Shown: in pieces, positions 3,412 through 16,062 of the stretch
Position numbering within the stretch: position 1 is the first letter of the stretch
How the letters are laid out: every line of letters starts with the position of its first letter
Assembly: GCF_029223525.1 (NCBI RefSeq)
Contig: NZ_JARHTQ010000006.1
Coordinates: forward strand, 186,001-250,000
Direction of reading: 5' to 3'
From: Streptantibioticus ferralitis
GTDB taxonomy: Bacteria; Actinomycetota; Actinomycetes; Streptomycetales; Streptomycetaceae
Length of the DNA stretch: 64,000 bases
Program-made: the position numbers and the translations under genes
The notes under the pieces: generated by a model
Database searches by the model: none
The model's input: only the letters and a program-made list of their open reading frames with translations
What the model was told of the DNA's origin: nothing

Positions 3412-3447
3412 GACTGTGCCGTTGGTACAGTCGAAGCGCTGTTTCGA
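3412..3447 (+). promoter_or_regulatory. Tandem palindromes upstream of lrp (probable autoregulatory operator)
   Basis: Two inverted repeats abut: GACTGTGCC-GTT-GGTACAGTC (3412-3432, one mismatch between arms) and TCGAA-N7-TTCGA (3431-3447). They end about 8 nt before the ribosome binding site AAGGAGG (3455-3461). Lrp/AsnC regulators commonly repress their own gene from such repeated sites. Binding is inferred. Confidence 0.55.
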
Positions 3448-3471
3448 CGACCGTAAGGAGGCCGCCGGTCC

Positions 3472-3957
3472 GTGCCCGTGGACGCGTTGGACGCCCGGAT
3501 CCTGCGGTTGCTGCTGGAGCAGCCGCGCACCAGCGTGCGGGAGTACGCCCGGATCCTCGGTATCGCCCGCGGGACGCTGCAGGCCCGGCTCGACCGGCTG
3601 GAGCGGGACGGAGTGATCACCGGATACGGTCCCCGGCTCTCTCTGGCGGCGCTCGGGCACCCGGTGCTGGCGTTCGTCCACATCGAGGTCACCCAGGGGC
3701 ACCTTGACGACGTCGGGACACGGCTGGCGGACATCCCCGAGATCATCGAGGTCTTCTCCATCACCGGTGGCGGCGATCTGCTGACCCGGGTCGCGGCCCG
3801 CGACAACGCACATCTGGAGGATGTGATCCAGCAGGTCATCCGGCTGCCTGGAGTGGTCCGCACCCGCACCGAGATGGTGCTGCGCGAGCGCGTGCCGCAG
3901 CGGATGCTGCCGTTGGTGGAGTCGGTGGGACGGAGCGCACCGGGCTCCCCCGTGTAG
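3472..3957 (+). CDS. Lrp/AsnC-family transcriptional regulator
   Basis: A 161-residue protein with an N-terminal winged helix-turn-helix (LDARILRLLLEQPRTSVREYARILGIARGTLQARLDRLERDGVITGY, about residues 4-50) and a C-terminal RAM/Lrp ligand domain (about 65-145, including EVTQGHLDDV and FSITGGGDLLTRVAARD). Length is normal for the family. The GTG start is preceded by AAGGAGG with a 10-nt spacer. It probably autoregulates and, being divergent from the FUSC gene, may control efflux in response to an amino acid or aromatic ligand; that part is inference. Confidence 0.9.
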   Translation: MPVDALDARILRLLLEQPRTSVREYARILGIARGTLQARLDRLERDGVITGYGPRLSLAALGHPVLAFVHIEVTQGHLDDVGTRLADIPEIIEVFSITGGGDLLTRVAARDNAHLEDVIQQVIRLPGVVRTRTEMVLRERVPQRMLPLVESVGRSAPGSPV

Positions 3958-13603: not shown

Positions 13604-14138
13604 CGGGCGGGGTAGGGGGCGGTATGGGGGGCGACCCGGCAGATGGCGGCGGTCCGGCGAACGGCGGCAGCGCCGCGAACGCCGGATCGGTCCGTACGGT
13701 GGTGGCGAGCCGTCCGAGCAGCCGCCTGGCCCTGGACAGCGGATGCTGCGGGAAGCGGGCGTCGTAGCAGGGGTCGTCGGCGCGGTTGAAGGGCAGCGGG
13801 CCGCGCAGCTCCGGGGCGAAGGGGTGCGGCAGAAAGAGCTGTTCGGGGCCGAGTTCAAGCCCGACGGCCGCCTCGCGCATTCCGGTGGTGCCGAGTTCGA
13901 CGGACTGGACCTTCACCACCACACTGCAGGTCGCGCGCGGGACCGTGAAGCTGGCGAGGAAGATCAGCCCGCTCGGCTGGTCTGGGTAGGGAGATCCACC
14001 CCGTGTATCGGTCCCATGGACCCTGATCCTGCCGCACCGTCCCGGGCGGCGGGCATGCCGGGTGGTCGGGGTCGGCGGCGCGACGGCGCCGAACGTCGCC
14101 GTGCCTCCAGCCAAGGCCCGCCAGGCAGGCTCTAGCAC
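13593..14138 (-). CDS. Hypothetical protein coupled to the thiolase-fold gene
   Basis: A GTG at 14138 overlaps the TAG stop of the upstream gene (GTGCTAG) and opens a 181-residue frame. The middle and C-terminal part looks genuinely coding: SGLIFLASFTVPRATCSVVV, then ELGTTGMREAAVGL and LPHPFAPELRGPLPFNRADDP, with a Pro-rich tail. The first ~45 residues are Pro/Arg-rich and less convincing, so a shorter product or an N-terminal frameshift is possible. No function assigned. The coupling suggests a shared role with the upstream thiolase-like protein. Confidence 0.5.
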   Translation of the reverse strand: MLEPAWRALAGGTATFGAVAPPTPTTRHARRPGRCGRIRVHGTDTRGGSPYPDQPSGLIFLASFTVPRATCSVVVKVQSVELGTTGMREAAVGLELGPEQLFLPHPFAPELRGPLPFNRADDPCYDARFPQHPLSRARRLLGRLATTVRTDPAFAALPPFAGPPPSAGSPPIPPPTPPVSR

Positions 14139-14911
14139 TCCACGACGGCGGCGCTCGTCGCCGTCGTCTCCAGGGACACCGCCAACACCCGGGTGCCCTT
14201 GGGGTGTTGCTCCTCGATCACTCGCTGCAGGGTCATCAGGACGCCGGTCGGTCGCCCGCATCCGGTGATGGGGGTTCGGTGTGAGCCGAAGCGTTCCCGG
14301 AAGCGGCGGTCGAAGGCCGCTGTCTCGGTGTGCAGTGCGACGAGGTCGATCCGGGACCACGGTGTACCGGCCTCGCGCAGGGCGCGGCCGATGAGCCGGT
14401 CGAGTTGCCGGTCGTCGATGCGCTGGTTCGCGGTGCTCTGGCCCGCGGAGCTCTGGTCCACGGTGATCTGGTAGTCGGCGGGCCGGTTGCCGGTGCTCCG
14501 GGTTTCGGTACTCCCGCCGGTGACGATGGAACGGACGCGGTGGTGCGGCCAGTCCTGCTCGGCGAGCAGAACAGCGGCGCAGCCGTCGGCCATTGGCGCC
14601 ATCACCAGACCACGGCGGAGCGTGCCGTCGGCGATCAGATGACCGGCCACCCTGGCGAGCAGCGCCAGCGCGCCGGTGCCGCCGTCCGCGACCCGGTACG
14701 AACAGGCGCGGCCGACGCCCAGCGCGTCCAGGCCCTGCCGCGCGGCGAGCTGGGCCTGTGCGGTGCCGCCCGGCGCGGTACCGCAGACGAGGTAGTACGG
14801 CAGCACCAGATCCGCTGCCGCCAGTCTCGCCCGCGCCAGCGCGTCACCGGTCGCCGCACCGAGTTCGCTGGAAGTGCCCACCGAACGGATGCCTATCGCC
14901 GCCGCCTTCAT
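14132..14911 (-). CDS. Thiolase-fold protein (KAS III-like) apparently lacking the active-site Cys
   Basis: A 259-residue protein starting MKAAAIGIRSVG with a strong GGGAGGGACG ribosome-binding site. It has features of a 3-oxoacyl-ACP synthase III-like fold: VLPYYLVCGTAPGG, RACSYRVADGGTGALALLARV, LVMAPMADGCAAVLLAE, DLVALHTETAAFD, and GCGRPTGVLMTL near the C-terminus. In functional enzymes the nucleophilic Cys lies in the segment corresponding to RVADGGTGAL (about residues 73-82), which here shows Gly. A low-complexity insert rich in Q, S and N (ADYQITVDQSSAGQSTANQR) lies near the middle. It is probably not a condensing enzyme; an acyl-binding or partner role is possible. Confidence 0.6.
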   Translation of the reverse strand: MKAAAIGIRSVGTSSELGAATGDALARARLAAADLVLPYYLVCGTAPGGTAQAQLAARQGLDALGVGRACSYRVADGGTGALALLARVAGHLIADGTLRRGLVMAPMADGCAAVLLAEQDWPHHRVRSIVTGGSTETRSTGNRPADYQITVDQSSAGQSTANQRIDDRQLDRLIGRALREAGTPWSRIDLVALHTETAAFDRRFRERFGSHRTPITGCGRPTGVLMTLQRVIEEQHPKGTRVLAVSLETTATSAAVVEC

Positions 14912-15089
14912 GCCCTCGTCCCTCCCTGCCTTTCCGTGTGATGCGATCCGGTCCGGGTGTGGACCGCCGCGTACGGCAATGTATGCGGCATGGGCGGGCA
15001 TCTCGGGCATGTCGCACCCGTATTGACTTGCCTCTGGCGTCCGGGGAGTTCTTCTTTACGAGGCGTTGATACGCAGGTGACAGTGCGGC

Positions 15090-15487
15090 TCAGGCTTCCG
15101 GTACCGGCTCGGGTGACGGCCCAACGTAGCGGGCGTCCGGGCGAATGATCTTGCCGTCCACCGCCTGCTCCGGGATGTTGGCACTCCAGCCACCGACCAC
15201 ACGGGCGCAGGCGAACGTCGGGGTGAACATCTCACGGGGCAGACCGCACAGTTCCATCACCACGCCCGCGTGGAACTCGACGTTGATGTGGAGTTCACGG
15301 CCTGGCTTGAGCTCGGCGAGTACCTCCTCGACACGTCGCTCGACCTTGATGGCGAAATCCACCCGCGGCCCGCCGAACCGCCGTGCGATCTCCTTGAGCA
15401 TCCGCGAGCGCGGGTCTTCCGTGCGGTAGACGGCGTGCCCGAACCCCATGATGCGGTCGCCCGCCAGCACCCGTTCGCGGATCCATA
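15090..15487 (-). pseudogene. 3' fragment of a citrate synthase gene
   Basis: Reading on the minus strand from about 15485 to the stop at 15090 gives the C-terminal third of a citrate/2-methylcitrate synthase: WIRERVLAGDRIMGFGHAVYR, TEDPRSRMLKEIARRFGGP, FHAGVVMELCGLPREMFTPTF and a final DARYVGPSPEPVPEA. The active-site GFGH loop is present, but everything N-terminal to it is missing and no start codon in frame belongs to the family. Upstream of W the same frame runs into antisense sequence of a second citrate-synthase fragment on the plus strand. A single deletion is the simplest origin. Confidence 0.85.
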
Positions 15488-16062
15488 CGGCACTTGCGCT
15501 GCTCGCCGACGACGATCTGGCCGCCTCCACGGTCGTCGCCCGAGTCGCCGCCTCATCCCGCGCGAACCCGTACGCGGTGGTCTCGGCCGGGCTCGGCGCC
15601 CTCGACGGCCCGCTGCACGGCGCCGCCAGCGGGCTCGCGCACCGCATGCTGACCGAGGTGCTGCAGCGCGGCAGCGCGGCCGCCGTGGTCTCCGACCATC
15701 TGTGTACCGGGCGCGCCGTGCCCGGGCTGGGCCACCGGCTCTACCCGGGCGAGGATCCGCGGGCACGGGCGCTGTTCGAGCTGCTGGCGGACGTTCCGTC
15801 AGCCGAGCGGACGCTGGATGCCGCGCGGGCCGTGGTGCGGGCGGCGGCCCGCGATGTGCCGGTGCACGCCAACGTCGATCTGGCGCCGGCGGTGCTGTCG
15901 GTCTCCGCCGGGATGCCGAGCGAGGCGGGCGAGACGGTCTTCGCGGTGGCCAGGACGGCGGGCTGGATCGCGCACGCCCTGGAGGAGTACGCCGAACGTC
16001 CGCTGCGGATGCGCCCGCGCGGCCAGTACACCGGCCCTCGTCCGCCCCAGCCGCTGCCTTGA
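15488..16062 (+). pseudogene. 3' fragment of a second citrate synthase-like gene, divergent
   Basis: The plus strand from about 15488 encodes the C-terminal half of another citrate synthase family member: ALALLADDDLAASTVVARV, GLGALDGPLHGAASG, GLGHRLYPGEDPRARALFE and VHANVDLAPAVLSVSAGMP, ending RGQYTGPRPPQPLP. The catalytic regions around PLHG and GLGH survive, but the N-terminal half is absent. The frame stays open upstream to an ATG at 15448 only because it crosses the other fragment. Streptomyces often carry two neighbouring citrate-synthase-like genes; here both 5' halves and the promoter region between them appear lost. Confidence 0.85.

Follow-up and report, generated by a model that had tools for sequence, protein, structure and literature searches.

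A single deletion of approximately 1.64 to 1.67 kb very probably broke a divergent pair of citrate synthase-like genes in the lineage of this genome, the one genome of its species considered here. The window, that is, the whole stretch of 64,000 nucleotides that was analysed, corresponds to positions 186001-250000 of contig C77 in an 8.8 Mb draft assembly of 110 contigs. It can be regarded as a naturally occurring double knockout that affects an accessory citrate synthase-like pair and its control region, so that its carrier is comparable with two sister species in which the pair is intact. The deletion itself is ordinary gene loss; more interesting is what went with it, a candidate self-controlling regulator of citrate synthase fold and its putative operator.

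Remnants and junction

The features of the locus are as follows.

15090..15485, minus strand: last ~131 residues of a citrate synthase-like gene, a 3' remnant with its stop at 15090
15488..16062, plus strand: last ~190 residues of a helix-turn-helix/citrate-synthase fusion gene, a 3' remnant that has lost the helix-turn-helix
15486..15487, no strand: deletion junction, with left homology to 15485/15486 and right homology from 15488
15479..15484, no strand: GGATCC, ancestral minus-gene coding sequence, found in G001 and G002 too
15090..15647, minus strand: 185-aa chimeric open frame, made of plus-gene antisense followed by the minus remnant
15448..16062, plus strand: 204-aa chimeric open frame, made of 14 residues of minus-gene antisense followed by the plus remnant
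15189..15194, minus strand: Gly-Gly codons, an in-frame insertion in the minus remnant that adds one residue relative to G001 and G002 in the alignment

An earlier sequence-only reading had citrate synthase sequence starting abruptly at about 15485 on the minus strand and about 15487 on the plus strand. Homology to intact relatives begins at 15485 or 15486 (WIRERV...) and at 15488 (ALALLADDD..., first whole codon at 15490), respectively, in agreement with that description. The Pfam family Citrate_synt matches the minus remnant over profile positions 234-356 of 357 (E = 8.3e-35) and the plus remnant over positions 169-357 of 357 (E = 2.3e-46), which confirms that only the 3' portions are kept, oriented away from each other. 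The minus remnant shares 89-90% identity with the C-terminal portion of the full genes in G001 and G002, the two other genomes of the same genus, and the plus remnant is 90-92% identical over 190 residues to their full 431-aa genes. In the alignment the plus remnant retains the catalytic motifs GPLHG, GLGH and NVD. Each of the two frames that cross the junction has its start codon inside the antisense of the opposite gene. A Pfam search of the neighbouring interval, 14135-15010, found no family.

Relative to G001 and G002, a single block is missing from the window, 1,674 bp and 1,635 bp long, respectively, and the flanks are collinear on both sides. The block comprises both 5' parts and the shared intergenic region, as expected from the earlier suggestion that one deletion took both divergent 5' parts and their shared promoter region. 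Alignment to relatives, which the same reading had recommended for defining breakpoints and microhomology, shows that left-arm homology extends through GGATCCA (G001) or GGATCCAT (G002), and that right-arm homology begins with CGGCACTT. Base 15487 (A) has no match to either arm in G001 or G002, but a more distant relative, L081, has an A at the corresponding right-arm position; the join therefore contains at most one added, unmatched base, with 1-2 bp of microhomology.

Within 40 nt of the two ends, shared words reach at most 8 nt in G001 and 6 nt in G002, and these words are out of register. Because the ends have no repeat in register, recombination between repeats is ruled out. The GGATCC palindrome had been placed correctly at 15479-15484 and linked to the event; since it is common to both same-genus relatives, it was not created by the join, and its position in ancestral coding sequence rules out a part in the event. 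The genome has two Ku genes. Given ends that lack in-register homology, at most one added base and the presence of Ku, the junction is compatible with a route by non-homologous end joining, though it does not prove one.

The pair in related genomes

The two other genomes of the genus, G001 and G002, both have whole, divergent copies of the two genes at the syntenic position. For a wider comparison we used the best 80 loci of a scan of species genomes together with G001 and G002; one locus, L060, lies on the same contig as G002 and was dropped from all counts as a duplicate, leaving 81. An intact divergent pair was found at 76 of these. The remaining five comprise a double truncation (L082), an apparent frameshift of the minus gene (L086), a gap of Ns (L067) and two contig ends (L063 and L070). 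The short arrangement seen in the window might have been the ancestral state, a possibility raised with the original reading, and the full pairs in the relatives rule it out. In the frameshifted case, Streptomyces sp. SID486, the minus gene yields two overlapping matches in different frames at ~3442-3484; this apparent frameshift is either real or a sequencing error.

Across 297 genomes of the family, surveyed at thresholds of 1e-80 for the plus gene and 1e-140 for the minus gene, 164 had a plus match, 155 a minus match and 151 both. At these thresholds 13 genomes had the plus gene only (the remnant in the window included), four had the minus gene only and 129 had neither. Among the matches to the plus remnant that were listed, only those in G129 and G137 had frames shorter than the 210 aa of the window: in G129 the short frame starts at contig base 2, and in G137 the gene is split across two contigs.

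The double truncation, in Streptomyces eurocidicus ATCC 27428 (L082:3483-5579), resembles the window in that both genes are 3' remnants pointing apart. A TnpB element (OrfB_IS605/Cas12f1-like) of ~1.3 kb lies between them, an element that the window lacks, and the breakpoints differ. There residues 223-431 of the plus gene survive, inside a 300-aa open frame, and for the minus gene the alignment is limited to residues 349-385. This double truncation is an event independent of the one in the window. Thus, both genes of the pair have suffered damage on at least two occasions, with an element present in one case and absent in the other.

Origin of the junction and fate of the remnants

The sequence of events that we favor would start from an ancestral pair, a minus-strand gene for a citrate synthase-like enzyme and a plus-strand helix-turn-helix/citrate-synthase fusion gene, with a shared control region. 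One deletion would have taken the 5' parts of both genes and that region, the broken ends would have been rejoined, probably by non-homologous end joining, and both genes would have been silenced at once. The earlier reading spoke of two paralogues lost together; both genes are indeed truncated, but the plus gene was a fusion and not a plain paralogue. That reading also expected another full citrate synthase, and the genome has two full genes elsewhere, on C44 and C56. We infer that both genes of the pair have lost their function and that the loss is tolerated through redundancy, because these two other citrate synthase genes remain.

Neither remnant contains a frameshift or a stop. The branch dN/dS is 0.20 for the plus remnant (bootstrap 0.08-0.41) and 0.14 for the minus remnant (bootstrap 0.07-0.30), and three neighboring genes, counted without a thiolase-like row that was visibly misaligned, have values of 0.11, 0.16 and 0.22. 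Because the remnants resemble their neighbors, relaxed constraint is unsupported, and dN/dS lends no support to decay. Conserved alignment columns were counted over 76 relatives (L060, L063, L067, L070, L082 and L086 left out). At the conserved plus columns the window departs at 7 of 102, the next highest rows departing at 4; at the conserved minus columns it departs at 3 of 85, a top count tied with one relative. The intact genes of G001 depart at 4 plus and 2 minus columns. Substitutions at conserved positions include H8D, A16V, H26N, R72C and L133P in the plus remnant and Y72H and L105P in the minus remnant. The simplest reading is that the deletion is fairly recent and that decay has only just begun.

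In a draft of 110 contigs, two ends might have been wrongly joined by the assembler, in which case the strain would have both genes whole. We consider such an artefact very unlikely. The ends contain no repeat that could mislead an assembler, and the missing 5' halves are not found elsewhere in the assembly, which has four citrate synthase matches in total, two of them the remnants themselves. Nor does the assembly contain a copy, at 0-1 mismatch, of the core of the intergenic array described below. Moreover, the remnants carry substitutions at positions kept by 75-76 of the 76 relatives, together with one in-frame insertion. The S. eurocidicus locus suggests another history, in which a mobile element formerly inserted between the genes removed both 5' halves through adjacent deletions before being lost itself, the junction being its scar. 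There the TnpB element lies between remnants of the same pair, and the plus-gene breakpoint (residue 223) is ~20 residues from that of the window. However, the junction in the window shows no element sequence, duplication or repeat, the minus-gene breakpoints are far apart (residue 349 against ~264), and the two lineages are not close, so that we give this history only a small chance.

The open frames, the low dN/dS and the catalytic-type motifs kept in the plus remnant could also indicate that both remnants continue to be expressed and to function as short proteins of citrate synthase fold, and the plus remnant of S. eurocidicus likewise lies in an open frame. Against this, the promoter region, the native starts and approximately half of each citrate synthase domain are lost, the start codons of the present frames fall in the antisense of the other gene, and the substitutions listed above affect conserved positions in both remnants. 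Continued function is therefore improbable, and a single deletion followed by loss of function of both genes is the explanation that we retain.

The fusion gene, its control region and known systems

In G001 and G002, the N-terminal domain of the intact plus gene passes the Pfam cut-offs for MerR, HTH_17 and MerR_1 as well as the NCBIfam cut-off for an excisionase domain. It scores 16 against a cut-off of 77 bits for BldC, far below. The domain is thus like those of the MerR, HTH_17 and excisionase types, but is fused to a citrate synthase domain; DNA binding is predicted. Of 81 frames for each gene (best 80 loci plus G001 and G002, without L060), a helix-turn-helix motif was found in 78 for the plus gene and in none for the minus gene. 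The two genes also differ in an N-V-Asp/Glu motif, with Asp in 72 of 81 plus genes and Glu in 72 of 81 minus genes, the other nine frames of each set being unmatched by the pattern used; its acidic residue is at the position of the catalytic Asp. Of the two full genes elsewhere in this genome, that on C56 has NVE and that on C44 has NVD. Among solved citrate synthase structures, the nearest to the intact plus gene of G001 is 2p2w (E = 3.3e-32, residues 104-429), a match that spans the citrate synthase part only and leaves the helix-turn-helix outside. A literature search, thin on subscription journals, found no paper that treats the fusion protein as a regulator.

Between the divergent genes lies a palindromic array of ~60 bp, roughly GACTGTCCATGcTTGACT-n7-TGTCAATaTTGATTgAATCAAT (for example, at L029:4999-5161). 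It was present in all 77 of the relatives' intergenic regions examined, a set that omits L060, L063, L067, L070 and L082 and keeps L086. At least 16 positions of its 22-nt core were matched in each of the 77 regions, whereas 385 shuffles reached 15 at most; the left element is separated from the core by 7 nt in 74 regions and by 6 nt in three. The hexamer TAC(G/A)GT stands 6-8 nt before the plus-side ATG in 68 of 77 regions, a placement that would suit a leaderless plus-side transcript. The sequence TTGATTGAATCAA has one copy each in G001 and G002, at the intergenic place, and was not found in the genome of the window; among 28 other genomes it has one site each in G003 and G011, away from the plus gene.

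We scanned 121 family genomes with a degenerate 22-mer, allowing up to 3 mismatches, and found a match to the array core in 45. The 25 perfect matches are without exception immediately 5' of the fusion gene. In total, 49 of 59 core rows were used, 10 weaker ones that overlapped a used row on the other strand being left out; 34 of these 49 sites are 5' of the plus gene, and for 15 the site is elsewhere or the place of the plus gene is unlisted. Conversely, 17 of the 52 plus genes with listed coordinates had no core match at 3 or fewer mismatches. None of the exact cores tested against the window was present. Elsewhere in its genome, C44 has four weak matches, with 2-3 mismatches each, at two positions; the intervals G000:C44:267928-267956 and 277750-277778, ~9.8 kb apart, are identical palindromes weakly like the core.

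The pair is arranged differently in G088 (contig C53; L143 and L144). There the plus gene and an array are accompanied by only residues 17-49 of the partner (~33 residues), while a whole minus gene lies 20 kb away with its own array, the plus gene being absent from the 6 kb read at that place. In this split arrangement each gene thus keeps an array alone.

Two traits expected of an autoregulator occur together in the relatives: a predicted DNA-binding domain on the protein and, beside its own gene, a conserved palindromic element that is rare elsewhere. We propose that the fusion protein would control its own divergent promoter. More tentatively, its product may be a metabolite sensor of citrate synthase fold with a MerR-type head that would act through a single palindromic operator and control only itself and its divergent partner, in which case the deletion would have removed sensor, operator and target together; this fuller model, drawn from sequence, is a possibility to which we commit less than even confidence. 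The array could instead serve MtrA or another regulator. The survey points to a testable candidate regulator in the central carbon metabolism of Streptomyces, the product of a fusion gene that adjoins a conserved palindromic array, almost unique within the genome and overlapping an MtrA-bound site published for S. coelicolor.

The published report describes binding of MtrA to a probe carrying a site between sco5831 (citA3) and sco5832 (citA4) of Streptomyces coelicolor, and higher expression of both genes in an mtrA mutant at late times (PMC12323332). The S. coelicolor site, as printed there, falls within the left part of the array. Its distance to the array core is constant, at 16 nt, in 71 of the 77 regions, and 12-14 of its 16 positions are matched in 63 of 77, compared with 2 of 77 at 12 positions, and none higher, after shuffling. 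SCO5830 adjoins SCO5831 in S. coelicolor (PMC9739823), and in L082, the one locus checked for this, a sucrase/ferredoxin-like gene beside the plus gene corresponds to it. Because of the arrangement, the MtrA site and this SCO5830-like neighbor, the fusion gene is probably orthologous to sco5831/citA3, and the minus gene probably to sco5832/citA4. In Saccharopolyspora erythraea, GlnR represses citA and a gene likewise named citA4 (PMC10704036). As in the case of sco5831 and sco5832, the relatives have a divergent citrate synthase-like pair with a regulatory site between the genes, whereas the window retains only the two 3' remnants and its intergenic region is gone.
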